From positions 1 through 40,543 of the forward strand of contig JACPGB010000015.1 in the NCBI GenBank assembly GCA_016182655.1: 40,543 nt of DNA, written 5' to 3'. The notes below the pieces were generated by a model that saw nothing but the letters and a program-made list of their open reading frames with translations, did no database searches and was not told the origin of the DNA. Numbering within the stretch: position 1 is the stretch's first letter; the number at the start of each line of letters is the position of its first letter. The position numbers and the translations under genes were made by a program. This stretch comes from Deltaproteobacteria bacterium. Lineage in GTDB: Bacteria > Desulfobacterota > GWC2-55-46. Shown here piece by piece: positions 16,181-31,855 of the stretch.

Positions 16181-16325
16181 TTCGTATAAAGGCTCCAAGC
16201 GGCCTGAAAAATTTTTCCGTCGCGCCGCAAGGGCTTTTTACCCCTGCCTTTTAGCCCCGTCGTTTTAAAAATTGCACAAAAGACCTGCCCCATCAGTCGC
16301 CGGCATCCGATTCAAGGAGGGAGCC

Positions 16326-17441
16326 GTGGGTAAGCACGTTTTGATAACTGGAGGCGGGGGCTTTATAGGGTCGCACCTTGCCGATGAGCTCCTGAGACGC
16401 GGGCACAGGGTAAGAGCGCTCGACAACCTTTCGCCGCAGGTCCACGGAAACGCGCGGCAAAGGCCGGAGTACCTGGACCCCGAGGTCGAGCTCGTGGTCG
16501 GAGACGTCAGGGACAGGGAGGCGGTCTCACGCGCGCTTTCCGGCATCGACGCGGTCTTTCACCTCGCCGCGGCCGTTGGTGTGGGGCAGTCGATGTACGA
16601 GCTTGACATGTACTCCGACGTGAACACCAGGGGGACGGCCGTCCTCCTGGAGGAGCTTATTAAAAGGCCGGTGGAGCGGCTCATCGTCGCTTCCAGCATG
16701 TCCATATACGGCGAGGGGCTCTATAGCGGCGCCGACGGGACGACATGCGAGCGCGTAACGAGGTCCGTCGAAGACCTCAAGCGCGGCGAGTGGGAGGCCC
16801 TCGACAACGCGGGGACGAGGCTTACGCCCGTGCCCACGCCGGAATCCAAAACGCCGGCGCTCTCTTCCGTCTACGCGCTTACGAAGTACGGCCAGGAGAT
16901 GATGTGCCTCATGACCGGCAAGGCCTACTCCATACCTACAGTGGCCTTGAGGTTCTTTAACGCCTACGGAGAGAGGCAGTCGGCTTCGAACCCGTACACC
17001 GGGGTGCTCGCGATATTCGCCGCGCGCCTCCTTAACGGCAAGCCGCCGCTCATATACGAGGACGGCATGCAGATGAGGGATTTCGTGAGCGTAAAAGACG
17101 TCGCGCGCGCTTGCATGCTCGCGCTCGAGAGCCCTTCGGCCCCCGGAAACGCCATCAACGTCGGGAGCGGCAGGAGGTACGCCGTGATCGAGGTCGCCGG
17201 GCTCATGTCGCGGGTCTTCGAGACCGGGATAAGCCCGGAGGTGACGGGCAAATGCCGCGTCGGCGACATACGCCACTGCTTCGCCGACATAACACTCGCA
17301 AAAAAGTCCCTCGGGTACGAGCCCGAAGTCACGCTTGAAGATGGATTGATAGAACTCCGTTCGTGGCTCGACGGCAGGCCCGCGTTCGACAGGTTCGCCG
17401 AGGCGAGCGCCGAGCTCGCGTACAGAGGGCTCACGCTTTAG
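16326..17441 (+). CDS. NAD-dependent sugar-nucleotide epimerase (dTDP-L-rhamnose 4-epimerase type)
   Basis: A 371-residue extended SDR enzyme and the first gene of the cassette. The Rossmann motif is TGGGGFIGSH (residues 8-17). The catalytic set is S124 region VASSMSIYGEG and Y183/K187 in SSVYALTKYGQ. The segments AAVGVGQSMYEL, RFFNAYGERQSASNPYTGV and GKCRVGDIRHCFADI match a branch I associate with dTDP-L-rhamnose 4-epimerases. In many of those I recall paired Cys knuckles between residues 130 and 165; here that insert keeps a single Cys (C141). The GTG start follows a near-ideal AAGGAGG (16313-16319). A longer start at 16272 exists but has no ribosome site. It probably converts the activated sugar used by the glycosyltransferases downstream. 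Confidence 0.85.
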   Translation: MGKHVLITGGGGFIGSHLADELLRRGHRVRALDNLSPQVHGNARQRPEYLDPEVELVVGDVRDREAVSRALSGIDAVFHLAAAVGVGQSMYELDMYSDVNTRGTAVLLEELIKRPVERLIVASSMSIYGEGLYSGADGTTCERVTRSVEDLKRGEWEALDNAGTRLTPVPTPESKTPALSSVYALTKYGQEMMCLMTGKAYSIPTVALRFFNAYGERQSASNPYTGVLAIFAARLLNGKPPLIYEDGMQMRDFVSVKDVARACMLALESPSAPGNAINVGSGRRYAVIEVAGLMSRVFETGISPEVTGKCRVGDIRHCFADITLAKKSLGYEPEVTLEDGLIELRSWLDGRPAFDRFAEASAELAYRGLTL

Positions 17442-17450
17442 GAAAGACGG

Positions 17451-18734
17451 ATGAGATACGCGCTGATAAACCCGCGATGGGACTTCGAGGGCTCGGTTTA
17501 CTTCGGGTGCAGGGAGCCGCACCTCTCCCTCGAGCTCGGGTACGCGAGGGAGTTCCTCCGGCGCGAAGGGCATGACGCGGTATTGATAGACGCGCACCTC
17601 CTGGGGCTCGGCACGGAGGACGTGCGCCGGATACACGAGGACTTCCGGCCCGACTTCACCGTCGTCCTTACGGCCCCCACATACCTTTTCTGGCGATGCC
17701 CTCAACCCGAGCTCAAAGTCCCGAAGGACCTCATATCGGCCATAAGCGGCCAGGCCGGGAGGATCGTCGCCATAGGCCCGCACGGCTCCGCGACCCCGGT
17801 GCCGGTCCTGAAGAAGCTCGGCGCTGATATCGTCGTCATGGGAGAGCCCGAGGAGATACTTCCGAAACTCGCGAGATCGAGCGACCTTAAGGGCGTGCCG
17901 TCGATATGCTTCAGGGACGAGGGCGCTCTGCGCATACAGGGCAGGCCCCATGAGACGGATGTCGCGGCGCTCCCGGCGCTTACATGGGAGAGCGAGCTGT
18001 TGAAGAGCCACCTCCATCACCACCATCGGTTCGATTCCACGCCCGATGGCCCCGGGGCCGAGATGGAGACCTCGAGGGGATGCCCGTACTCCTGCTCCTT
18101 CTGCGCCAAGGCGGACTTCAGGAACAGGTACAGGAAGAGGCCTTTGCAGACGGTCTTGAAGGAGCTCGATTCCCTCATGAGCTCCGGGGTCTCGTACGTC
18201 TATTTCATAGACGAGATATTCATGCCTGACGAGAGGCTCCTTAACGCGCTGTCGGACAGGGGAGTCAAGTTCGGCATACAGACGCGGATAGACCTCTGGA
18301 AGACGGATACGCTCGAGCTCCTTGGGCGCTCGGGGTGCGTATCGATCGAGGCCGGGGTAGAGTCGATAACCGAGCGGGGCAGAGCCCTCCTCGGCAAAAG
18401 GTGCGAGAGGACTACCGACGAGCTCGTGAACCTCCTCGTCATCGCGAGGAACTTCGTCCCGTTCGTGCAGGCTACACTACTTGCGACCGAGGCAGACGAC
18501 GCGGAGATGGTAGAGAACTGGAGGGCGTGCGCGGACAGGCTCGGCATATGGGCTACGAGGCCCGTGCCTTTATTTCCGTACCCGGGGAGCGAGGAGTACA
18601 GGAGAAGATGGGGCATACCGGATTCGTCCGCGTGGGAGCGCGCCCATGAATATTATCTTTCGATGTACAAGAATTTCAGCGACATACAGGAGAGCGCCCC
18701 TAAACCCCTGAAGGAGCTTGAGCGCACGGAATGA
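17451..18734 (+). CDS. B12-binding-type radical SAM protein of the glycan cassette
   Basis: A 427-residue class-B-type radical SAM protein. An N-terminal cobalamin-binding-type domain (MRYALINPRWDFEGSVYFG at the start, AIGPHGSATP near residue 110) precedes the radical SAM core with C211, C215 and C218 (RGCPYSCSFC), YFIDEIFM, IEAGVESITE and PLFPYPGSEEY. A His-rich stretch (HLHHHH, about 187-192) lies just before the core. I recall a computed family, TIGR04295, for such proteins in oligosaccharide clusters, which would need an HMM search to confirm. The ATG follows the epimerase stop by 9 nt, and the 3' end overlaps the GT4 gene by 4 nt (ATGA). The likely role is C-methylation or rearrangement of a sugar; the substrate is unknown. 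Confidence 0.87.
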   Translation: MRYALINPRWDFEGSVYFGCREPHLSLELGYAREFLRREGHDAVLIDAHLLGLGTEDVRRIHEDFRPDFTVVLTAPTYLFWRCPQPELKVPKDLISAISGQAGRIVAIGPHGSATPVPVLKKLGADIVVMGEPEEILPKLARSSDLKGVPSICFRDEGALRIQGRPHETDVAALPALTWESELLKSHLHHHHRFDSTPDGPGAEMETSRGCPYSCSFCAKADFRNRYRKRPLQTVLKELDSLMSSGVSYVYFIDEIFMPDERLLNALSDRGVKFGIQTRIDLWKTDTLELLGRSGCVSIEAGVESITERGRALLGKRCERTTDELVNLLVIARNFVPFVQATLLATEADDAEMVENWRACADRLGIWATRPVPLFPYPGSEEYRRRWGIPDSSAWERAHEYYLSMYKNFSDIQESAPKPLKELERTE

Positions 18735-19843
18735 AGACAGACCTGAGTTCCATTCTGATGACCGCCGACGCGGCGGGAGGCGTATGGGCCTATTCGCTCG
18801 AGCTCGCGCGCGCCCTCGGGCCTTCCGGCGTCTCGGTGACGCTCGCCCTCATGGGCCCGGAGCCTTCCGCCTCACAAAGGCAGGAGGCGGCCGGGATACC
18901 GAACCTTGATCTTGTCGAGTCGGCATTCAGGCTCGAGTGGATGGAAGACCCGTGGGACGACGTCGGCCGCGCCGGGGAATGGCTTCGCGGCCTGGAAGAG
19001 GACCACGCGCCGGATGTCGTCCACCTTAACGGGTACGCCTACGGCTCGGCGGGGTTCAAGGCCCCGGTGCTCGTCGCGGCGCATTCGTGCGTCCTCTCGT
19101 GGTGGAAGGCGGTAAATGGCGGGGAGCTCCCCGGGCAGTGGGAGCGGTACAGGGAAGAGGTGTCGAAAGGCATCCAGTGCGCCGATATGGTCGTCGCTCC
19201 GACGAACGCGATGCTCCGGTCCATTTACAGGAATTACTACGTCCGGTCATCCTGCAGGGTGATATACAACGGCAGGAGCCCGTCTCTCTTCAGCCCGGGC
19301 CCGAAGGAGCCGTTCGTCCTTACGGCCGGCAGGCTCTGGGACGAGGCGAAGAACATAAGGGCGTTGTCAAAGGCCTCTGCCGCAATCCCCTGGCCTGTCT
19401 CTGCGGCGGGCGAGGGCTGGTCCAACGAAGGCAAGGGTCTCAGGACACTCGGGAGGCTCTCCGAAAGGGAGATCGCCGATTACATGTCCCGCGCTTCCGT
19501 CTTCGCGCTCCCGGCGCTCTACGAGCCTTTCGGCCTCTCCATACTGGAAGCCGCGCTCTCCGGGTGCGCGCTCGTGCTCGGCGACATACCGTCCTTAAGG
19601 GAGATATGGGGGGACGCGGCGGTCTTCGTCGAAGCGCGCGACACTTGCGGCCTGGGCGAGGCGATAGGGGCTCTTATACGCGACAGGGACGCGCTACGGG
19701 AATATTCAATGCGCGCGGTCGCCCGCGCGCGGAACTTTACGCCCGAGGCAGTAGCCGCCGGATACATATCGGCTTACGAACGGCTTTTGATGGACAGGGC
19801 GACGGTCAATGGAAAGGGCGCGGGCACAAGATGCGTATCGTAA
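18731..19843 (+). CDS. GT4-type glycosyltransferase
   Basis: A 370-residue GT-B glycosyltransferase. The N-terminal acceptor domain opens with MTADAAGGVWAYSLELARAL, the usual glycine-rich loop. VVHLNGYAYGS and VAAHSCVLSWW follow, and the C-terminal donor domain has LTAGRLWDEAKN, YMSRASVFALPALYEPFGL and the EPFGLSILEAALSG EX7E motif. It has no membrane span, so it works at or near the cytoplasmic face. The ATG overlaps the radical SAM stop (ATGA), and its 3' end overlaps the first CgeB-like gene by 13 nt. The donor sugar is unknown. Confidence 0.88.
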   Translation: MKTDLSSILMTADAAGGVWAYSLELARALGPSGVSVTLALMGPEPSASQRQEAAGIPNLDLVESAFRLEWMEDPWDDVGRAGEWLRGLEEDHAPDVVHLNGYAYGSAGFKAPVLVAAHSCVLSWWKAVNGGELPGQWERYREEVSKGIQCADMVVAPTNAMLRSIYRNYYVRSSCRVIYNGRSPSLFSPGPKEPFVLTAGRLWDEAKNIRALSKASAAIPWPVSAAGEGWSNEGKGLRTLGRLSEREIADYMSRASVFALPALYEPFGLSILEAALSGCALVLGDIPSLREIWGDAAVFVEARDTCGLGEAIGALIRDRDALREYSMRAVARARNFTPEAVAAGYISAYERLLMDRATVNGKGAGTRCVS

Positions 19844-20946
19844 TGTTCTGTCATTCGCTCCTTTCGGACTGGAACCACGGCAACGCGCATTTTCTCCGCG
19901 GGGTAGTCTCCGAGTTGCTCTCAAGAGGGCACGACGTAGTAGTCTATGAGCCGAGGGACTCCTGGAGCTTCAATAACCTCGTTCTTGAGCACGGCTACGG
20001 CCCGGTCGACGAGCTCTTGCTCGTCTTTCCCTGGCTCCGGAGCAACAGATACGAGCTTGAAAAACTTGATCTGGACCGCGTCCTTGACGGCGCAGGGATG
20101 GTCATCGTGCACGAGTGGAACTCCCCGGAGCTCGTCCGGAGGGCCGGGGAGTACAGGAAGTCGAACCGGGGGTTCAAGCTCTTTTTTCACGATACCCACC
20201 ACAGGTCCGTGACGAGCCCGTTCGAGATGGAGGCCTTTGATCTCTCCGGCTACGACGGCGTGCTCGCCTTCGGCGAGACAATAAAGGAAATATACCTGCG
20301 CCGGGGCTGGGCCGAGAGGGCATGGACGTGGCACGAGGCCGCCGACACGAGGGTCTTCTATCCATCGGAGCGCATGGAGCAGGACTGCGACCTCGTCTGG
20401 ATCGGCAACTGGGGCGACGGAGAGAGGACAAAGGAGATAGACGAGTTTATAACCGGCCCGGCGCGCTCTTTGGGACTGAGGGCGAGACTCCACGGGGTCA
20501 GGTATCCGTCGGAGACCGTGTCCGACCTTAAGTCCGCCGGGATCGAGTACGGCGGCTGGGTGCCGAATTACGCGGTCCCCGAGGTCTACGCGAGGCACAA
20601 GTTCACGATACACGTCCCGAGGAGGCCATATGCCGAGTCGCTCCCGGGCATACCGACGATAAGGGTCTTCGAGGCGCTCGCCTGCGGGATGCCGCTCCTC
20701 TCCGCCCCATGGGAGGACAGCGAAAGCCTCTTCTCTCCCGGAGAGGACTTTCTCGTCGCGCGAAACGGTGAGCAGGCAAGGAGGATCATGCGCGATCTCG
20801 CTAACGACCACGCGATGAGGCAAGAGCTCGCTTCAAACGGTCTCGGCGCGATACGTAGCAGGCACACGTGCGCCCACAGGGTCGATGAGCTCCTGGGCAT
20901 TTACGCGGGGCTTGGCATGGTCCATTCAGGGGGTGCGTTGGCGTGA
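19831..20946 (+). CDS. CgeB-like glycosyltransferase 1
   Basis: A 371-residue protein of the CgeB-like GT-B family (named after the Bacillus spore-coat protein). It opens with MRIVMFCHSLLSDWNHGNAHF. DLVWIGNWGDGERTKEI sits at the domain junction, and the C-terminal domain ends in RVFEALACGMPLLSAPWED and FLVARNGEQARRIMRDL. The start inside the end of the GT4 gene (13-nt overlap) is chosen because the family begins with a beta strand like this one; upstream starts would translate the GT4 gene out of frame. It is the most divergent of the four CgeB-like proteins in this row. Predicted cytoplasmic; substrate unknown. Confidence 0.85.
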   Translation: MRIVMFCHSLLSDWNHGNAHFLRGVVSELLSRGHDVVVYEPRDSWSFNNLVLEHGYGPVDELLLVFPWLRSNRYELEKLDLDRVLDGAGMVIVHEWNSPELVRRAGEYRKSNRGFKLFFHDTHHRSVTSPFEMEAFDLSGYDGVLAFGETIKEIYLRRGWAERAWTWHEAADTRVFYPSERMEQDCDLVWIGNWGDGERTKEIDEFITGPARSLGLRARLHGVRYPSETVSDLKSAGIEYGGWVPNYAVPEVYARHKFTIHVPRRPYAESLPGIPTIRVFEALACGMPLLSAPWEDSESLFSPGEDFLVARNGEQARRIMRDLANDHAMRQELASNGLGAIRSRHTCAHRVDELLGIYAGLGMVHSGGALA

Positions 20947-22001
20947 AGATAGCCTTCTTCGGCTCAAGCCTTGTTTCCGCCTACTGGAACGGGGCGGCCA
21001 CATACTACAGGGGCATGATAAGGTGCCTCGACGCGCTCGGGTACAGTACGACATTTTACGAGCCCGACGCCTACGGGCGGCAGACCCACAGGGACATCAA
21101 GGACCCCGAGTGGGCGCGCGTATTCGTATACGCGAATAGCATTGAGGGGCTCTCCAGGGCGCTCGATGACGCGAGAGACGCGGATGTCATCGTCAAGGCG
21201 AGCGGGGTCGGCGTATTCGACGAGGCGCTTGAAAGGCATGTCCTCGAGATAAAAAAGCCGGGGGCAAAGGCCGTCTTCTGGGACGTGGACGCGCCTGCGA
21301 CGCTCGAGAGGGTCCACGAGGACCCGAGAGACCCGTTCAGGCCGCTCATCCCGCGATACGATCACATATTCACATACGGAGGCGGGGACCCGGTAGTGAA
21401 GGCGTACAGGTCTCTGGGCGCGCGCGCCTGCATTCCGGTCTACAACGCCCTCGACCCCTCGACACACTTTCCGGTCTTTCCGGACAAGAGGTTCGGCTGT
21501 GATCTCGGGTTTATCGGCAATCGCCTGCCCGATAGGGAAACGAGAGTGCGCGAATTTTTCTTCGGCGCGGCCTCTCGTCTCCCCGAGAGGAAGTTCATCC
21601 TCGGCGGCAACGGCTGGGACGAGCCGTTTCTGCCGAACGTGCATTACCTCGGCCACCTATACACCGCGGACCACAACGCGTTCAACTCGACCGCGAACGC
21701 GGTACTTAACGTCAACAGGGAATCGATGGCGCGCTACGGTTTTTCACCGCCGACAAGGGTCTTCGAGGCCGCCGGGGCCGCGGCCTGCATCATCACGGAC
21801 GCGTGGGAGGGGATAGGGCTCTTCCTCGAACCCGGAAGCGAGGTCCTTGTGGCGAGGAACGGAGACGAGGTCGCCGGGATCATAAAGGCGTTAAAGCCCG
21901 AGGAGGCGGCCGGCATCGGCCGCGCGGCTCATGAGCGGGTGATGAGAGAGCACACCTACGCGCAAAGGGCCCGCGTGGTCGACGCGATACTCGGGGGATG
22001 A
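20943..22001 (+). CDS. CgeB-like glycosyltransferase 2
   Basis: A 352-residue member of the same family. The N-terminus MKIAFFGSSLVSAYWNGAAT is followed by TTFYEPDAYG, VFWDVDAPATLERV and YDHIFTYGGGDPV. The junction is GCDLGFIGNRLPDRETRV, and the C-terminal domain has PPTRVFEAAGAAACIITDAWEG and LVARNGDEVAGIIKAL. It starts at a GTG that overlaps the previous stop (GTGA) and ends with an ATGA overlap into the third copy, so the whole row should be translated by coupling. The order of domains and the spacing are close to copies 3 and 4, which supports duplication within the cluster. Confidence 0.86.
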   Translation: MKIAFFGSSLVSAYWNGAATYYRGMIRCLDALGYSTTFYEPDAYGRQTHRDIKDPEWARVFVYANSIEGLSRALDDARDADVIVKASGVGVFDEALERHVLEIKKPGAKAVFWDVDAPATLERVHEDPRDPFRPLIPRYDHIFTYGGGDPVVKAYRSLGARACIPVYNALDPSTHFPVFPDKRFGCDLGFIGNRLPDRETRVREFFFGAASRLPERKFILGGNGWDEPFLPNVHYLGHLYTADHNAFNSTANAVLNVNRESMARYGFSPPTRVFEAAGAAACIITDAWEGIGLFLEPGSEVLVARNGDEVAGIIKALKPEEAAGIGRAAHERVMREHTYAQRARVVDAILGG

Positions 22002-23155
22002 TGAATGCCGATCGAAAAGGGGCGCGAAAGATGGCGTTAGGCGCAAGGCTCGATATTGTAATGCTGGGGCTCTCGATCACATCATCGTGGGGCAACGGTC
22101 ACGCGACCACCTACAGGTCGCTTGTCCGCGAGCTCGTCTCGCGCGGCCACAGGGTGCTCTTTCTGGAGAGGGACAAGCCCTGGTACGGCTCGAACAGGGA
22201 CATACCTGGGCCGGGCTACGGCTCGATAGAGCTGTATTCGTCTATAGAGGACTTGAAGTCCAGGTTCGGCGAAAACGTAAGGACCGCCGACTTCGTGATG
22301 GTCGGCTCATATGTGCCCGAAGGGGCGACGGTAGGGGAATGGGTGGTCGATACCGCAAAGGGCGTAACCGCCTTCTACGATATAGATACCCCGGTTACGC
22401 TCTCCAGACTCAAGGCAGGCAAGGCCGGGTACCTTAGCGCCGCTCTCGTGCCGGAATACGATATCTACCTCTCGTTTACCGGAGGGCCTATTCTCCGGAC
22501 GATTGAGCGCGAGCTCGGCTCCCCTATGGCGAGGCCGCTCTACTGCTCGGTCGACCCCGAGCTCTACTCGCCGGAGGAGGCTGAAAAAAAGTGGGACCTG
22601 GGCTACGTCGGCACATACTGCGTCGACAGGCAGTCCGCGCTCGACGAGCTCATGCTCGCCCCTGCGAGGAACCTAAAGGACGGCAGGTTCGTAGTCGCCG
22701 GGCCGCTCTATCCTGAAAATATCTCATGGCCCGGCAATACCGACAGGATAGACCACCTCCCCCCGTCCGAGCACAGAGCGTTCTATAACTCCATGAGGTT
22801 CACGATGAACCTCACGAGGGCCGACATGATAAGGGCCGGGTACTCGCCGAGCGTAAGGCTTTTCGAGGCCGCGGCCTGCGCCACCCCTATGATCACGGAT
22901 TATTGGAGGGGGCTTGACGTCTTTTTCGAGCCGGGCAGGGAAATACTCGTCTCGGGCTCCGGGGCCGACACCGCCTTGTTTTTAAGCGAGATGAGCGAGG
23001 CCGCGAGGCGGAGGCTCGGCGAGCGCGCAAGAAGGCGCGTCCTCGACCGGCACACGGCTCTCCACAGGGTCGACGAGCTCGAGTCCTACATAGAGGAGTC
23101 ATACGGCGCGAGGGCCGAAAGGATGGCCTATGTGAAGGCGGGTGAGCTGGAATGA
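21998..23155 (+). CDS. CgeB-like glycosyltransferase 3
   Basis: A 385-residue member. After a short basic extension the core begins DIVMLGLSITSSWGNGHATT, with LFLERDKPWYGSNRDIPG, AFYDIDTPVTLSRL, WDLGYVGTYCVDRQ and VRLFEAAACATPMITDYWRG. The SSWGNGHAT and ERDxPxY motifs are shared with copy 4 but not with copies 1 and 2, so 3 and 4 are the closest pair. An in-frame ATG twelve codons in (at 22031) could be the true start, since the family starts at the beta strand shortly after it. No signal peptide is seen. The function is inferred as sugar transfer within the cassette. Confidence 0.86.
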   Translation: MMNADRKGARKMALGARLDIVMLGLSITSSWGNGHATTYRSLVRELVSRGHRVLFLERDKPWYGSNRDIPGPGYGSIELYSSIEDLKSRFGENVRTADFVMVGSYVPEGATVGEWVVDTAKGVTAFYDIDTPVTLSRLKAGKAGYLSAALVPEYDIYLSFTGGPILRTIERELGSPMARPLYCSVDPELYSPEEAEKKWDLGYVGTYCVDRQSALDELMLAPARNLKDGRFVVAGPLYPENISWPGNTDRIDHLPPSEHRAFYNSMRFTMNLTRADMIRAGYSPSVRLFEAAACATPMITDYWRGLDVFFEPGREILVSGSGADTALFLSEMSEAARRRLGERARRRVLDRHTALHRVDELESYIEESYGARAERMAYVKAGELE

Positions 23156-24213
23156 AGCTCGTCGTCTTCGGACTTTCCGTAAGCTCCTCCTGGGGCAACG
23201 GGCACGCGACCATCTGGCGGGGGCTCATTAAGGCGCTCCACCGGAGGGGGCATAGGACAATATTCTACGAGAGGGACGTCCCGTACTACGCGAGCCACAG
23301 GGACCTTACGCACGGCGAGTCCTTCGACTTGCGCCTCTACGGGAGATGGGAAGAGGTCAGGGGCGCGGCGTTTGATGAGCTTGAGGACGCCGATGCCGCG
23401 ATAATAACGTCGTACTGTACGGACGCGATAGAAGCCTTTGCGCTCGCGCGTTCATCGGATGCCTTAAGCGTGTTCTATGACCTCGATGCGCCGGTGACGA
23501 TCGCCGCTCTCCGCGACGGGAAAAGGCCGTTCTACATCGGAGCGGACGGGCTCAAAGGTTACGACGCGGTATTGAGCTACACCGGTGGCGCGTCGCTTGT
23601 TGCCTTGAGGGATGAGCTTGGGGCGAGGAGTGTCTATCCGCTCTACGGCTCTGTCGACCCCGGCCTCCACAGAAAAGCGCCTGAGATAGACGAGTTCAGG
23701 GCCGACCTCTCCTATCTCGGGACATACGCCGAAGACAGGCAGAAGGCGCTCTCCGAGCTCTTCATAAAGCCTGCTAAAAGGCTCAGGGAAAAGAGGTTCC
23801 TTATAGGCGGCTCCCTTTACCCCGAGGGGTTTCCATGGGCGGATAATATTTTTTTCGTGAGGCATGTGCCTCCCCCGGCGCACCCGGCGTTCTATTCGTC
23901 ATCCGCTTCCACGCTAAACGTGACGAGGGGGGCGATGGCCGCCATGGGCTGGTGCCCTTCGGGGAGGCTCTTTGAAGCCGCCGCGTGCGGAACGCACATC
24001 ATCTCGGACACCTGGCCGGGGCTTGACGAGTTTTTTATTCCCGGAGAGGAGATAACCATCGCGGGCTCGGCGGACGACGTCGTCGAGGCGCTCGGGATGG
24101 ATGAGGCGAAGAGGCGAAAGATAGCGGAGGCGGGTAGGGAGCGCGCGCTAAAAGACCACACAGCGGAGAAGCGCGCCATCGAGCTTGAAGGCATACTCGG
24201 CGCGTATATTTAA
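23152..24213 (+). CDS. CgeB-like glycosyltransferase 4
   Basis: A 353-residue member that starts directly with MKLVVFGLSVSSSWGNGHAT and continues FYERDVPYYASHRDLTHG, VFYDLDAPVTIAAL, ADLSYLGTYAEDRQ, GRLFEAAACGTHIISDTWPG and FFIPGEEITIAGSADDV. It overlaps copy 3 by 4 nt (ATGA). The similarity to copy 3 runs over the full length, which marks it as a tandem duplicate that has diverged, perhaps to recognise a different acceptor. It is followed after 14 nt by the nucleotidyltransferase, preceded by an AGAGGAAA ribosome site. Confidence 0.86.
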   Translation: MKLVVFGLSVSSSWGNGHATIWRGLIKALHRRGHRTIFYERDVPYYASHRDLTHGESFDLRLYGRWEEVRGAAFDELEDADAAIITSYCTDAIEAFALARSSDALSVFYDLDAPVTIAALRDGKRPFYIGADGLKGYDAVLSYTGGASLVALRDELGARSVYPLYGSVDPGLHRKAPEIDEFRADLSYLGTYAEDRQKALSELFIKPAKRLREKRFLIGGSLYPEGFPWADNIFFVRHVPPPAHPAFYSSSASTLNVTRGAMAAMGWCPSGRLFEAAACGTHIISDTWPGLDEFFIPGEEITIAGSADDVVEALGMDEAKRRKIAEAGRERALKDHTAEKRAIELEGILGAYI

Positions 24214-24227
24214 AAGAGGAAAAGACC

Positions 24228-24956
24228 ATGTGGGGGATCATCCCGGCCGCAGGGGCGGGTTCGAGGATACAGCCGCTCGCGTTCTCCAAGGAGCTCCTTC
24301 CGGTGGGGTCCAGGGTCGAGGACGGCGTCGAGAGGCCGAGGGCCGTGAGCGAATACCTCGTCGAGCGGATGATAGAGGCCGGGGCGACGAAGATATGCTT
24401 CGTCATATCCCCGGGCAAATCCGACATCATGGAATACTACGGCGGCTCGATAGGAGGAGTCCATCTCTCCTATGTCGTTCAACCACGGCCTGCCGGGCTC
24501 TGTGATTCGATATTCAGGGCGCTCCCGCTCATACCGCCGGACGAGTTCGCGTTGGCGGGTCTTCCGGATACGGTCTGGTTCCCGAGACAGGGGTTCTCTC
24601 TTCTCGGCGACGATAGACTCTCGTTTCTTTTATTCCCGGTCGAGCGTCCGGAGCGTTTCGACGCGGTGAGCCTTGATGCGAGCGGCGCGGTATTGCGGGT
24701 AGAGGTAAAGGCAGAGAGGCCGTCGACCAACTGGGTCTGGGGGGCGTTCAAACTGAAGGGCGAAACGCTTTCGTCCCTCCATGCGCTCTGGACAGAGCGC
24801 GGCATGATTGACGAATACCTGGGCACGCTCGTAAACGAATATATAAAAAGGGGAGGCTCCGCAACGGGGGTCAGAAAGGGCGAGTCCTATGTGGACGTCG
24901 GCACGCTCAACGGCTACAGGGAGGCCGTAAGGCTCCTTGAGACGGGAACGGGTTAG
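24228..24956 (+). CDS. Sugar-phosphate nucleotidyltransferase
   Basis: A 242-residue NTP-transferase. The nucleotide-binding loop is PAAGAGSRIQPLAFSKELLP with R13 and K21 in the expected places. YVVQPRPAGLCDSIF and FALAGLPDTVWF supply the sugar-binding and metal-binding region, and YVDVGTLNGYREAVRLL closes the fold as in RmlA/RfbA-like enzymes. It is shorter than RmlA (about 290) and lacks left-handed helix repeats. It likely activates the sugar phosphate that the epimerase and the transferases use. The stop and the next start are adjacent (TAGATG). Confidence 0.87.
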   Translation: MWGIIPAAGAGSRIQPLAFSKELLPVGSRVEDGVERPRAVSEYLVERMIEAGATKICFVISPGKSDIMEYYGGSIGGVHLSYVVQPRPAGLCDSIFRALPLIPPDEFALAGLPDTVWFPRQGFSLLGDDRLSFLLFPVERPERFDAVSLDASGAVLRVEVKAERPSTNWVWGAFKLKGETLSSLHALWTERGMIDEYLGTLVNEYIKRGGSATGVRKGESYVDVGTLNGYREAVRLLETGTG

Positions 24957-25694
24957 ATGACCGGGAGCGCGTCTCATAAGGAGCGCGAGGTAATCGAGCG
25001 GCGCGTACGCGAGCTCGGGCCGTGGTTCCAGAACATGGACTTAAGCGGTGTTGCGACCGCGCCGGGACACTTTCTCGGGGACTACCCCCGGAACAAGTGG
25101 AGGAAGTTCGAGCACGCCATTCCGAAGGACTTGACCGGCAAGACCGTGCTCGATATCGGATGCAACGCGGGCTTTTACTCGATCGAGATGAAGAGGCGCG
25201 GGGCCGAGCGCGTCCTCGGCATAGACTTCGACGACGATTACCTCAGTCAGGCGCGGTTCGCGGCAGAGGTGCTCGGGCTTGAAATAGAATACAGGAAACT
25301 TTCCGTCTACGATGTCGGAGAGCTCAGGGAAAGGTTCGACATAGTGATATTCATGGGCGTCCTCTATCACCTCCGGCACCCGCTTCTCGCGCTCGACCTC
25401 ATAAGGGAGCACGCGGCAGGAGAGACGCTCGTCTTCCAGACGATGCTCCGGGGGTCGCTCGCCAGGTACGATACGGAAGAGGACTACCCATTTGAGGAGA
25501 GGGGGATATTCGGCGATCCCGATTTTCCCGCCATGTACTTTATCGAGAAGAGTTATTCGGACGACCCCACGAACTGGTGGCTCCCGAACCGCTCGTGCGC
25601 CGAATCCATGCTCAGGAGCGCCGGGTTCGAGATAGTAGCGAGGCCGGAGGAAGAGGTCTATATCTGCGCTTTACGGGAGGGGACGGGATGGTAG
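24957..25694 (+). CDS. SAM-dependent methyltransferase (CmoB-like, glycan cassette family)
   Basis: A 245-residue class I methyltransferase. The N-terminal lead-in WFQNMDLSGV and LGDYPRNKWRKF resembles CmoB-type enzymes. The SAM-binding motif I is VLDIGCNAGFYS (about residues 64-75), followed by GIDFDDDYL, FDIVIFMGVLYHLRHPLLAL and a C-terminal substrate region NWWLPNRSCAESMLRSAGFE. By memory this matches the computed family TIGR04290, defined from similar gene neighbourhoods; an HMM search would settle that. The predicted role is O-methylation of the glycan or its sugar nucleotide. It overlaps the glycosidase-like gene by 7 nt. Confidence 0.86.
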   Translation: MTGSASHKEREVIERRVRELGPWFQNMDLSGVATAPGHFLGDYPRNKWRKFEHAIPKDLTGKTVLDIGCNAGFYSIEMKRRGAERVLGIDFDDDYLSQARFAAEVLGLEIEYRKLSVYDVGELRERFDIVIFMGVLYHLRHPLLALDLIREHAAGETLVFQTMLRGSLARYDTEEDYPFEERGIFGDPDFPAMYFIEKSYSDDPTNWWLPNRSCAESMLRSAGFEIVARPEEEVYICALREGTGW

Positions 25695-26572
25695 AGGCCG
25701 TGATGCTCTGGAACGAGCCTAACAACCTTTCGCACTGGGACTTCCATATAGACGGCGACTGGTCGATATTCGCGGAGATGGTGAAGCTTGCGTCCTCCGC
25801 GATAAAGGCGAGGAGTCCGGGTCTTACGCGCGCGCTCGGCGGGATATCTCCCATAGACCCGGACTTCATAACGAACATGAAGGCAAAGGGCGTGCTGGAT
25901 TCCGTCGACATCGTCGCCGTACACGGCTTCCCGCTCGACTGGAACCACTGGTCGATACACGAGTGGCCGGGTAAGCTTGAGGAGATAAAGGCGGTGACGG
26001 GGCTTCCGATATGGGTATCCGAGGCCGGGGTCTCCACGTTCGGGGCCGAGGAGGTGCAGGAGTTCGGGCTACGGAAGACCGCCGAATATCTCTCGGGCAA
26101 AGCGGGCCGTATTCACTGGTACAGCTTGTACGACCTGCCGCGCGCGTGGCCCGCGACGACCCGGCACAGGGAGGCCGAGGGGTCGTCTTATTACAGGCAC
26201 TTCTACATGGGGCTTATCCGCGAGGACGGCACGCCGAAAAAGGCATTGAGCATTTTCCCGGAGTTCGCCCCGGAGCTCGGCATATGCCAATGGTTCCACT
26301 TCGAGGACCCGAGGATGGAAGACGCCGTAAGATGGATGAAGAGGCTCGGCGTCAGGCGCATTAGGACGGGCTTAAGCTGGGCCGACAGCCTTCGCCCAGG
26401 AGCGTTGGCGTGGTTCGACGCTCAGATGAAGGCGCTCGAGCCGTTCGAGGTGACCGTCACGTTCTGCTTTACACCGGAAGAAAAGGGGATACGCCCCGAC
26501 CATACGAGCCCGCCCGTGAACATAAGCGAGTTCGCCGAATTCTGCGACAGGATGGTGAAAAGATATGCTTAA
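25688..26572 (+). CDS. Glycosidase-like (clan GH-A) protein, apparently circularly permuted
   Basis: A 294-residue cytoplasmic protein with both catalytic Glu motifs of retaining clan GH-A enzymes: E10 in LWNEPNN (acid/base, end of beta-4) and E112 in IWVSEAGVSTFG (nucleophile, end of beta-7), 102 residues apart. HGFPLDWNHW and HWYSLYDLPRAW lie in between and after. Normally about 150 residues (strands 1-3) precede the NEP motif. Here the protein begins two or three residues before beta-4, and a beta-1 to beta-3-like segment (GICQWFHFEDP, RRIRTGLSWAD, VTVTFCFTPEEKG, ending CDRMVKRYA) is at the C-terminus. Joining the end to the start would restore the usual order. A start at 25577 would overlap the methyltransferase and is rejected. 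The substrate is unknown; transglycosylation is possible. Confidence 0.8.
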   Translation: MVEAVMLWNEPNNLSHWDFHIDGDWSIFAEMVKLASSAIKARSPGLTRALGGISPIDPDFITNMKAKGVLDSVDIVAVHGFPLDWNHWSIHEWPGKLEEIKAVTGLPIWVSEAGVSTFGAEEVQEFGLRKTAEYLSGKAGRIHWYSLYDLPRAWPATTRHREAEGSSYYRHFYMGLIREDGTPKKALSIFPEFAPELGICQWFHFEDPRMEDAVRWMKRLGVRRIRTGLSWADSLRPGALAWFDAQMKALEPFEVTVTFCFTPEEKGIRPDHTSPPVNISEFAEFCDRMVKRYA

Positions 26573-27419
26573 GGACATCAAGGAGAGATGGATAGAGGAG
26601 AGCTACACGTTCAGGCTCCTTGAGCACCTGAGGGAAGGCCTGCACGGGTCCCCGAGGATGCTCATCGTCGCGGCGCACCCTGACGACGAGGTCGCCTCGG
26701 CCGGGACGGTCATAAGGTACGCAGAGGACCTCTACATAATACACACGACCGACGGCGCTCCGAAGGACCCGAAGTACGCGAAGGCCGCCTCGTTCCGGAC
26801 AAGGGGCGCGTACGCCAGAGCCCGGAGGCAAGAGCTCCTCGCCGCGCTCCGGCTCGCGCGCATCCCTTCGGCGCGGTCCATGGAGGCCGGGTTCGTCGAC
26901 CAGGAGGCCTCCTTCAACCTCTTTGCGCTTACGCTGAGGCTCAAGGAGATGATCTCTGCCGTCTCGCCGGAAGTCGTCTTTACCCTGCCGTACGAGGGCG
27001 GGCACCCCGACCACGACTCCACGGCCTTTGCGGTCCACGCGGCCTTGAGGCTCATCGAGAGGGAGACGAACGACGCCCCTTTCCTCGTCGAGTACGCGTC
27101 GTACCACGCGAACGGGACGATGTTCTCGGCGATGGAGTTTTTGCCGGCAAAGACCGAGACCGTGACGGTCGTCCTTACCGAGGAAGAGAGGGCCGCAAAG
27201 GAGTCTATGCTCAACTGCTTCGGCACTCAAAGCAACGTGCTCAAGGCCTTTCCGAAGGCCTCGGAAAGGTTCAGGATGGCGCCCCTTTATGATTTTACGA
27301 CGCCGCCGCACAAGGGGAGGCTCTATTACGAGAACTTCGACTGGGGCATGACAGGCGTCCTCTGGAGGGCGAAGGCAAAGGAGGCGCTTGCGCGGCTCGA
27401 TATACCCGGCCTGATATGA
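26565..27419 (+). CDS. PIG-L family N-acetylglucosaminyl deacetylase
   Basis: A 284-residue zinc-dependent deacetylase. The AHPDDE motif is at residues 37-42 and the second metal motif GGHPDHD near 145-151, with THTTDGAP-like HTTDGAP between. These are the zinc ligands of PIG-L/MshB/BshB enzymes, which deacetylate N-acetylglucosamine units. The N-terminus carries about 25 extra residues before the first strand. It overlaps the glycosidase-like gene by 8 nt and the GT4 gene by 4 nt. It would remove an acetyl group from an amino sugar in the glycan made by the cassette; free-thiol (MSH/BSH) pathways use similar enzymes but their partners are missing here. Confidence 0.89.
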   Translation: MLKDIKERWIEESYTFRLLEHLREGLHGSPRMLIVAAHPDDEVASAGTVIRYAEDLYIIHTTDGAPKDPKYAKAASFRTRGAYARARRQELLAALRLARIPSARSMEAGFVDQEASFNLFALTLRLKEMISAVSPEVVFTLPYEGGHPDHDSTAFAVHAALRLIERETNDAPFLVEYASYHANGTMFSAMEFLPAKTETVTVVLTEEERAAKESMLNCFGTQSNVLKAFPKASERFRMAPLYDFTTPPHKGRLYYENFDWGMTGVLWRAKAKEALARLDIPGLI

Positions 27420-28459
27420 GCCTCTCGATATTGAGCGTCGCCTACCCGTTCGCGCCAATCAGGGAAGACACGGCCGGAGGGGCTGAGCAGGTGGTCTTGA
27501 CCCTCGACAGGCTTTTTACCAGGGCGGGACACTCATCCACGGTAATAGCGCAGACCGGCTCCGTTATAAAAGGCGCGCTCATAGGGATACCGTCCATTTG
27601 CGGGCCCATAGACGATACGGCTAAAAAAAAGACTCATGAGGCGTTGAGGGAGGCGATAGAAAAAACTCTCGCCCGGCAAAGGTTCGATATCGTTCACATG
27701 CACGGGATAGACTTCGCCTCGTATATGCCTTTCGCGGACGTGCCGGTCCTCGCGACCCTTCACCTGCCTCTTGGCTGGTACGAGGAGGGGGCGCTAAGGC
27801 CCATAAGGCCCGAGACACATCTCAATTGCGTATCGGTATCCCAACTCAAGGGGGCGGACGTGTGCTTCCCGGTGGTCCGGAACGGGGTCGATACCGGGAG
27901 TTTCAGGATGGCGAAGACAAAGGGGCGATACGCGCTCTCCCTCGGCAGGGTCTGCCCTGAAAAGGGGTTCCATATCGCGATGGACGCGGCAAGGAGAGCG
28001 GGCGTCCACTACGCGCTCGCCGGTTCGGTCTTCAGGTACGAGGCGCACGAGCGGTATTTCATGGACGAGATAGTACCGAGGCTCGGCCGCGACTGCGTCT
28101 TTCTCGGCCCCGTCGGCCCTGAGAGGAAGAGGCGGCTCTTGAGCAATGCGAGGTGCGTGATAGTCCCGAGCCTTGCGCCTGAGACGAGCTCGCTTGCGGC
28201 GATGGAGTCGCTCGCCTCCGGGACTCCGGTCGTCGCCATGAGGACCGGCGCGCTCCCGGAGATGATCGAGGACGGGAAGACCGGCTTTCTCGTCGACTCC
28301 CTTCCGGAGATGGCGGAGGCGATAAAAGAGGCGGGTCGCCTCTCCTCCGGGGCCTGCGTCAGGGCGGCGAGAGAGAGGTTTGACGCCTCGACGATGGCAG
28401 AGGGTTACATCGGTCTGTACAGGGAGATATTGGAGGACGCTCATGGGAAGGCGAAGTGA
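27416..28459 (+). CDS. GT4 glycosyltransferase 2
   Basis: A 347-residue GT-B enzyme. The acceptor domain opens SILSVAYPFAPIREDTAGGAE with the standard GGAE loop. FDIVHMHGIDFASYMPF and VRNGVDTGSF precede the donor domain with LSLGRVCPEKGFHIAMDAAR, APETSSLAAMESLASGTPVV (EX7E) and GKTGFLVDSLPEM. No membrane spans. The ATG overlaps the PIG-L stop (ATGA) and the stop overlaps the GTG of the acyltransferase. It follows the pattern of transferases that act on a freshly deacetylated amino sugar (MshA/BshA-like), though the order of action cannot be deduced. Confidence 0.89.
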   Translation: MSLSILSVAYPFAPIREDTAGGAEQVVLTLDRLFTRAGHSSTVIAQTGSVIKGALIGIPSICGPIDDTAKKKTHEALREAIEKTLARQRFDIVHMHGIDFASYMPFADVPVLATLHLPLGWYEEGALRPIRPETHLNCVSVSQLKGADVCFPVVRNGVDTGSFRMAKTKGRYALSLGRVCPEKGFHIAMDAARRAGVHYALAGSVFRYEAHERYFMDEIVPRLGRDCVFLGPVGPERKRRLLSNARCVIVPSLAPETSSLAAMESLASGTPVVAMRTGALPEMIEDGKTGFLVDSLPEMAEAIKEAGRLSSGACVRAARERFDASTMAEGYIGLYREILEDAHGKAK

Positions 28460-29442
28460 TCATCACGGAAGTCGACTCGCTTGACGGCCTGCTCTCCGTA
28501 ATCGACGAGTGGCGCGGCCTCTGGCTCGAGTGTGCCTCAGCACCGCCCTTTCTTTCGCCCGAGTGGCTCGTCCCGTGGTGGAAGAGTTTCGGCGGAGGCA
28601 GGCTTTGCGTGCTCGCGGCGAGAGACGGCGCGAGGCTCGTCGGGCTTGCCCCGTTGTTCGTATACAAAACAAAAGACAACGAACGCTCTCTGGCCTTTAT
28701 CGGCACAGGCATCTCCGATTATCTCGGCGTGCTGTCGGCCCCGGGGTTTGAGACCGGGTTCGCAGGCGCGGTCCTCCGATGTATAACCGAAGAGTCCCAC
28801 TCCTGGGACACTTGCTGTCTCGAGGAGATAAGGGAGGGCTCGCCGCTCCTTGATATCCGGCCTCCCGCCGGATACGCCGCGAGTGTCTCTCTCCAGAGCA
28901 CCTGCCCGGTGCTCCGCCTCCCGGACTCGGCAGAGGCCTTTCAGAGGCTACTGTCCAATGACTTCAGGAGAAAGATAGCAAAGGGCAAGCGGGATATCGA
29001 AGGCGCGGGTAGGGTCGATGTAGAGGAGGCTGAAACGGAAGCAGTCCCTGGATTCATCTCGGGACTCTTCGCCCTGCTCTGCGAGAGGCGTGGCGCGGAC
29101 GGCGCGGAAATAGAGCGCCTGAAGGCATTCCATACTGAAGCGGCCAGGGGGCTCTCGATGCTCGGGTGCCTCTCTCTTAAGAGGCTTCTTTTCAACGGGG
29201 AGCCAGCCTCGGTCCTTTACACGTTCAAGAGGGGGGAGAGGCTCTACTGCTACATGACGGCATTCGACGAGAGGCTTTCAAGGTACAGCCCCGGCAGATA
29301 CCTCATGGCGCGCGCCGTCGAGGATGCCATAGGAGAGGGCCTCCGGGTCTTCGATCTCATGCGGGGCGCCGAGGCGTACAAGTACGCATGGTCCGCACAC
29401 GACACCTTCAACTACCGTCTGAATATCGTAAAACAAATCTAA
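28456..29442 (+). CDS. CelD/FemAB-type GNAT acyltransferase
   Basis: A 328-residue protein. PFLSPEWLVPWWKSFGGG at the N-terminus and LNDFRRKIAKGKRD-like SNDFRRKIAKGKRDIE with SRYSPGRYLMARAVEDAI and FDLMRGAEAYKYAWSAHD near the C-terminus match the CelD/BcsL (Acetyltransf_6) branch of the GNAT superfamily. Relatives acylate sugars or amino groups in exopolysaccharide clusters. It may re-acylate the amine exposed by the PIG-L enzyme, an inference from order. It starts at a GTG overlapping the previous stop by 4 nt and ends 11 nt before the next gene. Confidence 0.83.
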   Translation: MIITEVDSLDGLLSVIDEWRGLWLECASAPPFLSPEWLVPWWKSFGGGRLCVLAARDGARLVGLAPLFVYKTKDNERSLAFIGTGISDYLGVLSAPGFETGFAGAVLRCITEESHSWDTCCLEEIREGSPLLDIRPPAGYAASVSLQSTCPVLRLPDSAEAFQRLLSNDFRRKIAKGKRDIEGAGRVDVEEAETEAVPGFISGLFALLCERRGADGAEIERLKAFHTEAARGLSMLGCLSLKRLLFNGEPASVLYTFKRGERLYCYMTAFDERLSRYSPGRYLMARAVEDAIGEGLRVFDLMRGAEAYKYAWSAHDTFNYRLNIVKQI

Positions 29443-29453
29443 AAGGAACAGCA

Positions 29454-31214
29454 ATGATAGTCTACAGAAAGGTGGAAGAGAGGAAAAAGACCCTCTGCCA
29501 CATCGATTGCCTGAAGTCCATGCTCATCGAGGCGGCAAACGCATTCTCCGGAGATACGCTCCGCGAATCCGCGCTCGGCCTGCTCATGGAGTGGGGCGTG
29601 TTCGAGTCCGCCCTCGTCGACGCGATATCGACCGATGAGGACGACGACAACGACGCTACAGCGCTCCTCCGGGACGCCGCCATGTTGACGGGGCGCATAT
29701 TCCATGCGTCGGTATCCGCGATGGAGCACCGGGGGCTTTGCAACGAGCTCATGGAAATAGTAGACCGCCTCAGGGGCCTTAAGCTCCCGGAGGCGGTGAC
29801 GCTCCGTGAGCCCGAGGGGTACGCGCATTACGGGCTCTACCCCGAGCTCTACATGGAGGCGGCCGGGAGGCTCTCGGAAGAGTTGAAGCCCTCCGAGGCG
29901 GTCTGCGTGGGGTTGCGCTCGATCGGTACGAGCCTTTCGGCCGCGGCTTCGGCCGCGCTCGCCGCAAAAGGGTGTGCCGTCGAGTCGTTCACGTTAAGGC
30001 CGCGCGGACATCCATTCAAAAGATATATACAGGCGTCTCGCGCTGTCTCGCGGCGCGTCCAGTCGCTCAAAGGGAGGCCGTTCCTGATATTCGACGAGGG
30101 GCCGGGCCTAAGCGGCTCCTCTTTCGGGTCAGTTGTTAATTTCCTTTCAAGCCTCGGCATACCGGAAAAGGATATGGTCCTCTTCCCGAGCTGGGAGCCG
30201 GACGGGGAGGCGTTTTTTTCAGAAGAGTCGAAGGGGCCGTGGACGAGGCTCAGGAAATACACGGCGGACTTCGACGCCGTCTTTGTGAAGAGCGGGAGGT
30301 TGTCCAGCGGGCTTAATACAAGCGAACTCGTAAATATTTCCGGCGGAGGGTGGCGTCCGTACTTTTACAGGTCGGAGGAGGACTATCCGGCGGTCAACGC
30401 CCATCACGAAAAAAGGAAGTATGTGGCGATAGGCGGGAAGAACGACGCGCAAGGCAACGGGCGCGCGTGGAAGGGGCTCGTCCTCCGCTTCGCCGGGCTC
30501 GGCAGGTTCGGGCGCGCGAAGTACGAGCGCGCAGTCAGGCTCTCGGGTTCAGGCCTCACCCAGAGGGCCGCGTCCATACGGGACGGGTTCATGGCGACGG
30601 AGTTCGTCCACGGCAGGCCCGTTGCGGGTATGGAGCTCAATCAGTTATTGCTCGACGAGATGGCGCGCTACGTCGCGTTCATAGACAACAACATGGACGC
30701 TTACCCTTCCGTCTCGTTCGATGAGATGGAGGAGATGATAACACGGAACACTACGGTCGGCCTCGGCGGGAAGTGGACGGAGCGGCTCTCGGCGCTCTCC
30801 CGCTTCAGGCCGTCGTTCAACGAAAACGGCGCGCGCTCCATAGACGGCAGGATGCTCCCGAACGAGTGGCTGCTTACGCCGCGCGGGTACGTGAAGGCGG
30901 ACTCCTTCGACCACCACGCAGACCAGTTCTTCCCGCGTTGTCAGGACATAGCCTGGGACCTGTCCGGCGCGATAACGGAGTTTGATTTGAACCCCATGGA
31001 GGAGGATTATCTTCTGTCGCGCTTTCTCAGGCACTCGAGCGACAGGGGGGCATTAAAGCGCCTGCGGTTTTATAAGATCGCGTATCTCGCATACAGGCTC
31101 GGGTACTCGGCCTTCTCGGCCGAAGAGCTCAAGGGCACGAAGGACGGCGGGAAGTTCAAGGCGTTGAACGCAAGGTACGCCCTCAAACTCAAGCACGAGT
31201 TATTGGCCTTGTAA
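29454..31214 (+). CDS. Phosphoribosyltransferase-like plus kinase-like fusion, function unknown
   Basis: A 586-residue protein and the last gene of the cassette. I do not recognise a named family. The N-terminal 140 residues are helical. Residues about 150-245 look like a type I phosphoribosyltransferase: a strand and loop CVGLRSIGTSLS (151-162) and FLIFDEGPGLSGSSF (210-224), which fits the PRPP loop pattern of hydrophobics, two acidics, G and S/T. The last 200 residues have an aminoglycoside-kinase-like layout: DGRMLPNEW (464-472), YVKAD (479-483) and QDIAWDLSGAITEF (497-510), but the catalytic HGD motif is replaced by DGR. AAAAGGAACA precedes the ATG. A start at 29388 would overlap the acyltransferase. 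Placement suggests a role in glycan precursor chemistry. Confidence 0.72.
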   Translation: MIVYRKVEERKKTLCHIDCLKSMLIEAANAFSGDTLRESALGLLMEWGVFESALVDAISTDEDDDNDATALLRDAAMLTGRIFHASVSAMEHRGLCNELMEIVDRLRGLKLPEAVTLREPEGYAHYGLYPELYMEAAGRLSEELKPSEAVCVGLRSIGTSLSAAASAALAAKGCAVESFTLRPRGHPFKRYIQASRAVSRRVQSLKGRPFLIFDEGPGLSGSSFGSVVNFLSSLGIPEKDMVLFPSWEPDGEAFFSEESKGPWTRLRKYTADFDAVFVKSGRLSSGLNTSELVNISGGGWRPYFYRSEEDYPAVNAHHEKRKYVAIGGKNDAQGNGRAWKGLVLRFAGLGRFGRAKYERAVRLSGSGLTQRAASIRDGFMATEFVHGRPVAGMELNQLLLDEMARYVAFIDNNMDAYPSVSFDEMEEMITRNTTVGLGGKWTERLSALSRFRPSFNENGARSIDGRMLPNEWLLTPRGYVKADSFDHHADQFFPRCQDIAWDLSGAITEFDLNPMEEDYLLSRFLRHSSDRGALKRLRFYKIAYLAYRLGYSAFSAEELKGTKDGGKFKALNARYALKLKHELLAL

Positions 31215-31246: not shown

Positions 31247-31855
31247 ATGCCATTCAGGATAGACCTGCATATCCATACGACCGGGAGCGGAGACAGCTCG
31301 GTTGAATGCGAGGAGGCCGTGGAGCGCGCCATCGCGCTCGGCCTCGACGGCATCGCCTTCACCGAGCACAACTCTTTCCTGGCTTCCGAGCCGGTGGAAA
31401 GGCTTAAGCAGAAGTACGGCAAGCGGATACTGATAATCCGCGGCGCGGAGTACTCCTCCTCCGACGGGCACATACTCCTCTTCGGCATAGACGAGAGGGT
31501 CATAAGCACGCTCGGCCGTTACGCCCCCGCAGTTGAGGCGGTGAAGGCGGCGAAGGCGGCCGGCGGCGCGGCGATAGTCGCTCATCCGTTCCGGGAGTGG
31601 TCTCTCTTTTCATCCGACATCTCCAATAAAGGGTTTACGGCCATCGAGGCCTTCAACAGCCACAACAACCACGAAGAGAACAGGAAGGCGCTCGTCGCGG
31701 CGGAGTCGCTCGGATTGCCCACGACCGGCGGGTCCGACTCCCACAGCCCCGAAGAGGTAGGGGCCTGCTATACGGAGTTCTTCGGAAGCGTGACCGTGGA
31801 GAACTTCATCGAACGGCTTAAAAGCGGGGCGTTCCGCGGCGTATGCCGGGGTTAG
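31247..31855 (+). CDS. PHP domain metal-dependent phosphoesterase
   Basis: A 202-residue protein with the full set of PHP metal-binding motifs: DLHIHTTGSGDSS (motif 1), AFTEHNSF (2), IIRGAEYSSSDGHILLFG (3), IVAHPF, and GGSDSHSPEEVG (4). The family hydrolyses phosphoesters, such as nucleoside or oligonucleotide phosphates; relatives include YciV/RnaAM and PolX domains. No signal peptide. It stands alone with its own promoter and a possible terminator, so it is probably not part of the cassette. The start is well defined, since the motif 1 strand begins at residue 3 and no better in-frame start is nearby. Confidence 0.88.
   Translation: MPFRIDLHIHTTGSGDSSVECEEAVERAIALGLDGIAFTEHNSFLASEPVERLKQKYGKRILIIRGAEYSSSDGHILLFGIDERVISTLGRYAPAVEAVKAAKAAGGAAIVAHPFREWSLFSSDISNKGFTAIEAFNSHNNHEENRKALVAAESLGLPTTGGSDSHSPEEVGACYTEFFGSVTVENFIERLKSGAFRGVCRG

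Follow-up and report, generated by a model that had tools for sequence, protein, structure and literature searches.

A conserved fusion of a phosphoribosyltransferase fold and an altered kinase fold as a candidate for ribose addition in a glycan-assembly cassette

What would a protein that joins a phosphoribosyltransferase (PRTase) fold to a kinase fold with altered catalytic residues do inside a cluster of sugar-assembly genes? This question is raised by a gene at 29454-31214 on the plus strand of the window, by which we mean the whole stretch of 40,543 nucleotides analysed here. The gene is an open reading frame of 586 amino acids (aa), starting with ATG at 29454, about 12 bases past the end of a GNAT acyltransferase gene, and is preceded by a candidate ribosome-binding site (AAAGGA, 29442-29447, +). 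A longer version of the frame, starting with ATG at 29388, is not conserved and is unsupported because the homologs open with M[IL]VY. By sequence and predicted fold, the protein consists of a helical N terminus, a PRTase-fold domain and an APH/choline-kinase-fold domain in which the catalytic Asp is replaced by Arg, and it is here called the PRT-APH protein. The sequence-only reading of this locus could place it in no named family, and this holds, as searches of Pfam, NCBIfam, PADLOC and PDB sequences (phmmer) all returned no match.

The protein nevertheless represents a conserved family, of which we aligned 25 members from groundwater metagenome-assembled genomes (MAGs), Nitrospira and alphaproteobacterial megaplasmids. 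The nearer relatives (45-87% identity) come from groundwater and Nitrospira-type MAGs, and plasmid homologs were found in 89 records with identity up to ~35% over most of the length (tblastn), mostly on Sinorhizobium pSymB-type megaplasmids, but also in Azospirillum, Roseomonas, Rhizobium, Ensifer and Ciceribacter, where they are labelled 'hypothetical protein' or carry no annotation. This nearer group extends to the family of the window's organism, where the gene is present in 14/30 genomes, the window's own genome included. A defence or phage origin was rejected, as there was no PADLOC match and no phage record or viral contig with a relative of the protein. At one locus (L032; G416 contig C23 128947-130667) the gene is broken into two frames, with two TGA codons in the first piece, and the remainder of the cassette is present. 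The open-access literature that we searched yielded nothing on TIGR04290, TIGR04295 or fusions of a PRTase with a choline kinase, and no library or paper that we searched describes the family or its architecture (PRTase fold plus APH fold with DGR...E...KxDxxDH).

The AlphaFold2 model, based on a shallow input alignment of 5 sequences from the window and its related loci, is good at residues 1-290 (most blocks with pLDDT 75-95) and poor beyond. In this model, residues 1-108 (29454-29777, +) form an all-helical region that is poorly conserved among the 25 members (1/108 positions invariant), and invariant positions are densest (27/173) in the PRTase-fold domain that follows at residues 109-281 (29778-30296, +). 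Residues ~110-280 match PRTases, and the best 32 VIA matches of the full-length model were all PRTase-fold proteins, led by PyrR (Z 9.2, 3.8 A, 145 residues) and followed by HGPRT, UPRT and PRPP synthetase; the first periplasmic binding proteins in the VIA list appear at 7.7, below the PRTase-fold matches. The best Foldseek match was human HGPRT. By itself this fold assignment is moderate because the Foldseek E value is only 5e-3, and it is strengthened because conserved motifs sit at the loop positions of type I PRTases.

In type I PRTases, the pyrophosphate, flexible and PRPP loops follow beta strands in that order. The predicted order here is strand 148-153, then R155-S-I-G158; strand 175-180, then RPxGxPF; and strand 210-213, then DEGPGLSGSS, leading into helix 222-233. 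The candidate pyrophosphate loop is RSIG (residues 155-158; 29916-29927, +), the candidate flexible loop RPRGHPFKR (residues 182-190; 29997-30023, +) and the candidate PRPP loop FLIFDEGPGLSGSS (residues 210-223; 30081-30122, +). In 25/25 homologs, R155-G158 as well as D214, E215, G216, P217, G218, S220, G221 and S223 are invariant, and L219 is Met in one of the 25. Ahead of the PRT core lies a further conserved motif, PEGYAHYGLYPELY (residues 120-133; 29811-29852, +), which is a candidate for the hood or acceptor site. The sequence-only reading had proposed a PRT-like pattern with FLIFDEGPGLSGSSF, residues 210-224 of the protein, as the PRPP-loop candidate, and both the PyrR and HGPRT matches and the invariance of the loop agree with that proposal. 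Given their conservation, neither this loop nor the DGR motif of the kinase-like domain is a chance match, and a loose PRPP-like motif arose in only 54/20000 shuffles of the 586-aa protein.

The loop does depart from the canonical form, reading DE-x4-SG-S-S and not [hydrophobic]4-[DE][DE]-x3-[ST]G-x-[ST], while PRTases from the same genomes show the canonical loop (e.g. VDDVLYTGRT). Further, the protein has no match to Pfam Pribosyltran (PF00156), its locus is not among the PF00156 matches listed, and no significant match emerged when the family was compared by HHalign with sets of PRTases from relatives. As the loop is one residue longer than canonical D[DE]x3[ST]Gx[ST] and no sequence-level similarity to a PRTase was found, we infer PRPP use from fold and motif.

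The C-terminal domain (residues 282-586; 30297-31211, +), when folded separately, gave a model of low confidence (mean pLDDT 54.6), but despite this its best 50 Foldseek and best 50 VIA matches all belong to the APH/choline-kinase superfamily, including an APH-like protein (VIA Z 12.8), maltokinase (12.3) and LicA (11.2; Foldseek E 6e-6). In the PDB, the family profile had just two matches, the better being LicA choline kinase (E 0.44) and the other an unrelated chain (E 1.5). The same profile matches intact APH-AAA fusion proteins through residues ~486-567 (E 5e-6 per genome), and these APH-AAA proteins alone rise above shuffled and reversed decoys. The sequence match to them starts at QDIAWD (residues 497-502; 30942-30959, +), a conserved APH-type C-lobe motif. 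Foldseek and VIA support both the PRT-like and the kinase-like domain, including the aminoglycoside-kinase-like character that had been ascribed to the last third of the protein.

In the catalytic-loop equivalent DGRMLPNEWL (residues 464-473; 30843-30872, +), HGD is replaced by DGR (residues 464-466), as had been noticed from the letters, and Asn by Glu471. Counted over the 24 members whose C-terminal domain can be aligned, this replacement is a fixed family trait: D464, K481, D483, D486 and H487 are invariant (24/24), Arg466 is present in 23/24 (His once) and Glu471 is Asp once, both exceptions residing in a single member (L023), which has DGH(x4)D where the other 23 have D[GN]R(x4)E, and the HxD(x4)N catalytic loop is thus lacking. 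The motif KADSFDH (residues 481-487; 30894-30914, +), which contains K481, D483, D486 and H487, is a DFG-like metal-site candidate. With beta-7 (472-475) and beta-8 (478-481) as anchors, the predicted topology suggests that the metal-binding Asn corresponds to E471 and the catalytic Asp to R466, while the counterpart of the metal-binding DFG Asp after beta-8 would be D483, 12 residues past E471, with D486 as the alternative.

The altered site is kept under selection because the replacement residues are invariant across distant taxa, and for the same reason a simple decaying pseudokinase was rejected. The earlier suggestion of a perhaps inactive kinase is therefore only half right: the canonical catalytic Asp and Asn are lost, but their replacements and neighbours (D464, R466, E471, K481, D483, D486 and H487) vary no more than the PRPP loop does, as one would expect of a site that has been rewired or repurposed.

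An association of PRT and APH also recurs in separate genes, with the PRT gene first and the APH gene second as in the fused protein. An HPRT-like gene adjoins an APH-AAA gene in G000 (contig C4 66397-67715; L110, 2181-4264, - strand), and this pair occurs in 10 genomes of the order. The PRPP loop of the paired HPRT-like gene is often degenerate (VEGIIDRGTT in the window's genome), and the Asn of HGDxxxxN in the paired APH-AAA protein is often His.

The PRT-APH gene is located in a glycan-assembly locus with TIGR04295 and usually TIGR04290, the markers of an oligosaccharide cassette to which TIGRFAM notes give the name 'rhizo-twelve'. In the window, the cassette genes, all on the plus strand, encode an NAD-dependent sugar epimerase/dehydratase (16272-17441), the TIGR04295 B12-binding radical SAM protein (17451-18734; 639 bits, cut-off 400), five glycosyltransferases spanning 18731-24213 (18731-19843, ~19837-20946, 20943-22001, 21998-23155 and 23152-24213), a sugar-phosphate nucleotidylyltransferase (24228-24956), the TIGR04290 methyltransferase (24957-25694; 381.8 bits, cut-off 300), a glycoside-hydrolase-like protein annotated as beta-xylosidase in relatives (25577-26572 as the longest frame, the true start being later), a PIG-L deacetylase (26565-27419), a GT4 glycosyltransferase (27416-28459) and, as the upstream neighbour of the PRT-APH gene, the GNAT acyltransferase (Acetyltransf_6; 28456-29442). 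The sequence-only reading had let the cassette end with the PRT-APH gene, but a gene for a PHP-family phosphoesterase of 202 aa (31247-31855, +) starts ~32 bases further on and lies directly downstream in 14/15 loci of the window's lineage. With 88 bits, this protein passes the cut-off of the NCBIfam CehA/McbA domain (80 bits), and it is a candidate 5'-phosphatase partner. A weak, sub-threshold match (42 bits) links it to phosphoribosyl 1,2-cyclic phosphate diphosphodiesterase, as phosphoribosyl chemistry would lead one to expect.

The gene order of the cassette is conserved in relatives. Among the 30 genomes of the window's family, the 14 with the PRT-APH gene are precisely those with TIGR04295, and 12 of the 14 also have TIGR04290, although this count overstates independence because the genomes are related. 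Two further genes of the alphaproteobacterial cassettes encode an inositol-3-phosphate synthase and a histidine phosphatase; a UDP-glucuronate decarboxylase, or a zinc-binding dehydrogenase together with a Gfo/Idh oxidoreductase, is often present as well. The histidine phosphatase is near the PRT-APH gene in 9/10 alphaproteobacterial loci and in the Nitrospira locus L006, and 23/25 loci have a phosphoesterase gene of one kind or the other (PHP or histidine phosphatase) nearby. Only one of the 25 loci (L104, on plasmid AZO_p1 of Azospirillum lipoferum 4B) has no recognised cassette neighbour within 14 kb. The trio of PIG-L, GT4 and GNAT genes in the window (26565-29442), together with the inositol-3-phosphate synthase and phosphatase of the alphaproteobacterial versions (L001-L003 and L108), resembles a mycothiol/bacillithiol-type layout, for which the NCBIfam scores are weak (MshA 46 bits, BshB2 42 bits). 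On the alphaproteobacterial megaplasmids (L001, L002, L003 and L108), genes of a stress type adjoin the cassettes, namely DUF1003, PAS kinases, Hsp20 and a potassium channel or Kdp. The Rhizobiaceae cassettes also contain a pair of pyruvyl-transferase and F420-hydrogenase-like genes.

With a PRTase fold and an altered kinase fold inside a sugar-assembly cluster, the protein is therefore a good candidate for a ribose addition to glycan that has not been described. Our preferred reading, to which we give a probability of about 45%, is that of a cassette enzyme whose PRT domain binds PRPP and ribosylates a glycan or polyol. The domain would bind Mg-PRPP, with D214 and E215 holding the ribose hydroxyls and Mg, G216-S223 the 5'-phosphate and R155-G158 the pyrophosphate, and, in the manner of CriT and gPRT, would transfer ribose-5-phosphate to a hydroxyl of the growing glycan or polyol. 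The altered kinase domain may bind and position the acceptor instead of carrying out ordinary ATP-dependent phosphorylation, and a cassette-encoded phosphoesterase, PHP here and the histidine phosphatase in alphaproteobacteria, would then remove the 5'-phosphate. Ribosylation of a glycan is favoured by the glycosyltransferase, nucleotidylyltransferase, PIG-L, epimerase and UDP-glucuronate decarboxylase genes of the cassettes, by the matching presence of TIGR04295 and by the nearby phosphoesterase genes. Against this reading count the longer PRPP loop, the missing sequence link to PRTases, the low confidence of the C-terminal model and the lack of the HAD phosphatase domain of known bipartite ribofuranosyltransferases, and the alphaproteobacterial histidine phosphatase, which adjoins the inositol-phosphate synthase, may serve inositol phosphate instead.

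The latter neighbourhood also bears on a different, rather doubtful proposal, in which the acceptor is a small metabolite such as inositol and the PRT domain makes a small phosphoribosyl intermediate (N- or C-linked, nucleoside-like) or a 5-phosphoribosyl polyol, to be elaborated by other cassette enzymes. Classical PRTases use small acceptors and the fold matches are nucleobase PRTases, and in alphaproteobacterial cassettes the inositol-3-phosphate synthase and histidine phosphatase adjoin the gene; however, no gene of nucleobase or nucleoside metabolism was recognised in the cassette, and the window's lineage has no inositol synthase within it. It is unlikely that the C-terminal domain is instead an active kinase with rearranged residues (D464/R466/E471/D483/D486) acting on a sugar, polyol or lipid, with the PRT domain as an accessory that supplies or senses a phosphoribosyl ligand. 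Such a kinase would fit the constancy of D464, D483, D486, H487 and K481, the beta-3 position 345, which is Lys or Arg in all members, and the fold neighbours, among which are the small-molecule kinases for maltose, glucosamine, 5-methylthioribose and choline, but the catalytic Asp and metal-binding Asn positions are taken by Arg (His once) and Glu/Asp, and the kinase domain is less invariant than the PRT loops. Equally speculative is a more radical version, in which the kinase fold has been rebuilt around the fixed set D464-R466-E471...K481-D483-D486-H487 for a non-kinase reaction on a phosphoribosylated intermediate, coupled to an O-phosphoribosyltransferase; the site might, for example, take off or shift the 5'-phosphate, or work with PRPP or pyrophosphate in place of ATP, and, if true, this would make the protein a ribofuranosylation machine without a HAD phosphatase and add a new activity to the APH fold. 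That both domains are non-catalytic, a PyrR-like sensor of PRPP or nucleotides and a pseudokinase that regulate or scaffold glycosyltransferases, is least probable, since the regulator PyrR as top VIA match and the lost HGD motif are set against the lack of any recognised RNA- or DNA-binding segment and against active-site-like loops kept in both domains even though the proteins of these very distant phyla are only 28-35% identical overall, which would be unusual for a scaffold.

If the preferred reading, glycan or polyol ribosylation from PRPP, is right, the protein represents another route for ribose into bacterial glycans, found in bacteria of soil, of groundwater and of root nodules, Sinorhizobium meliloti with its pSymB among them. 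It also offers a kinase fold refitted with a fixed new residue set, an example that can be put to the test. The sequence-only reading, which suggested undescribed chemistry, went too far here, because O-phosphoribosylation of glycans from PRPP has been published for CriT/CrpP, Cj1432 and Klebsiella gPRT+PRP (PMC10299916, PMC12096443, PMC11231755); it is the combined PRT and APH-like architecture and its family that we did not find described. CriT moves Rib-5-P from PRPP onto the glycan, after which a phosphatase takes off the phosphate (PMC10299916; precedent also in PMC12096443 and PMC11127046), and Campylobacter Cj1432 and the Klebsiella O4/O7 systems act likewise. The prototype ribofuranose-adding family was traced with the HAD phosphatase domain as marker (PMC11127046), a screen that a PRT-APH-type protein would escape because it has no HAD domain.

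Compared with known systems, the locus has the gene set of the TIGR04295/TIGR04290 cassette, with which the gene co-occurs strictly within the window organism's family, and in which the PRT-APH protein has no named family. With LicA and the APH superfamily, the protein shares the predicted two-lobe kinase topology, a DFG-like Asp and a C-terminal QDIxWD (APH type DxxxDLA), and it differs in HGDxxxxN becoming DGRxxxxE, in having no Pfam PF01636 match and in its fusion to a PRTase fold. The COG2187-like bifunctional APH-AAA proteins (L095-L101) are alike in the profile match and in that related proteins adjoin an HPRT-like gene in relatives, whereas they retain HGD, carry a C-terminal P-loop ATPase and have their PRT partner as a separate gene. 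Type I PRTases (PyrR, HGPRT, UPRT) are alike in predicted fold, loop order, and the acidic pair and S-G-x-S of the PRPP loop; the PRT-APH protein differs from them by the additional loop residue, the missing PF00156 match, its fusion to helical and kinase-like domains and its location outside nucleotide pathways.

In CriT, a PRTase-like core is combined with helical bundles, and D680 and E818, acidic residues from two separate loops, stand in for an adjacent acidic pair (PMC10299916), whereas the pair is adjacent in the PRT-APH protein (D214-E215). An APH-like domain takes the place of the HAD domain of the CriT-type systems: the rest of the protein is helical and kinase-like, no HAD phosphatase was recognised among the cassette genes scanned, and the PHP or histidine phosphatase comes from a gene of its own. 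By predicted fold and not by sequence similarity, the protein nevertheless resembles CriT-CrpP (H. influenzae Bcs3), Cj1432 and Klebsiella O4/O7 gPRT+PRP in its PRTase-like alpha/beta core within a glycan-assembly locus, its helical N-terminal part, its candidate acidic residues for ribose and the phosphoesterase encoded alongside.
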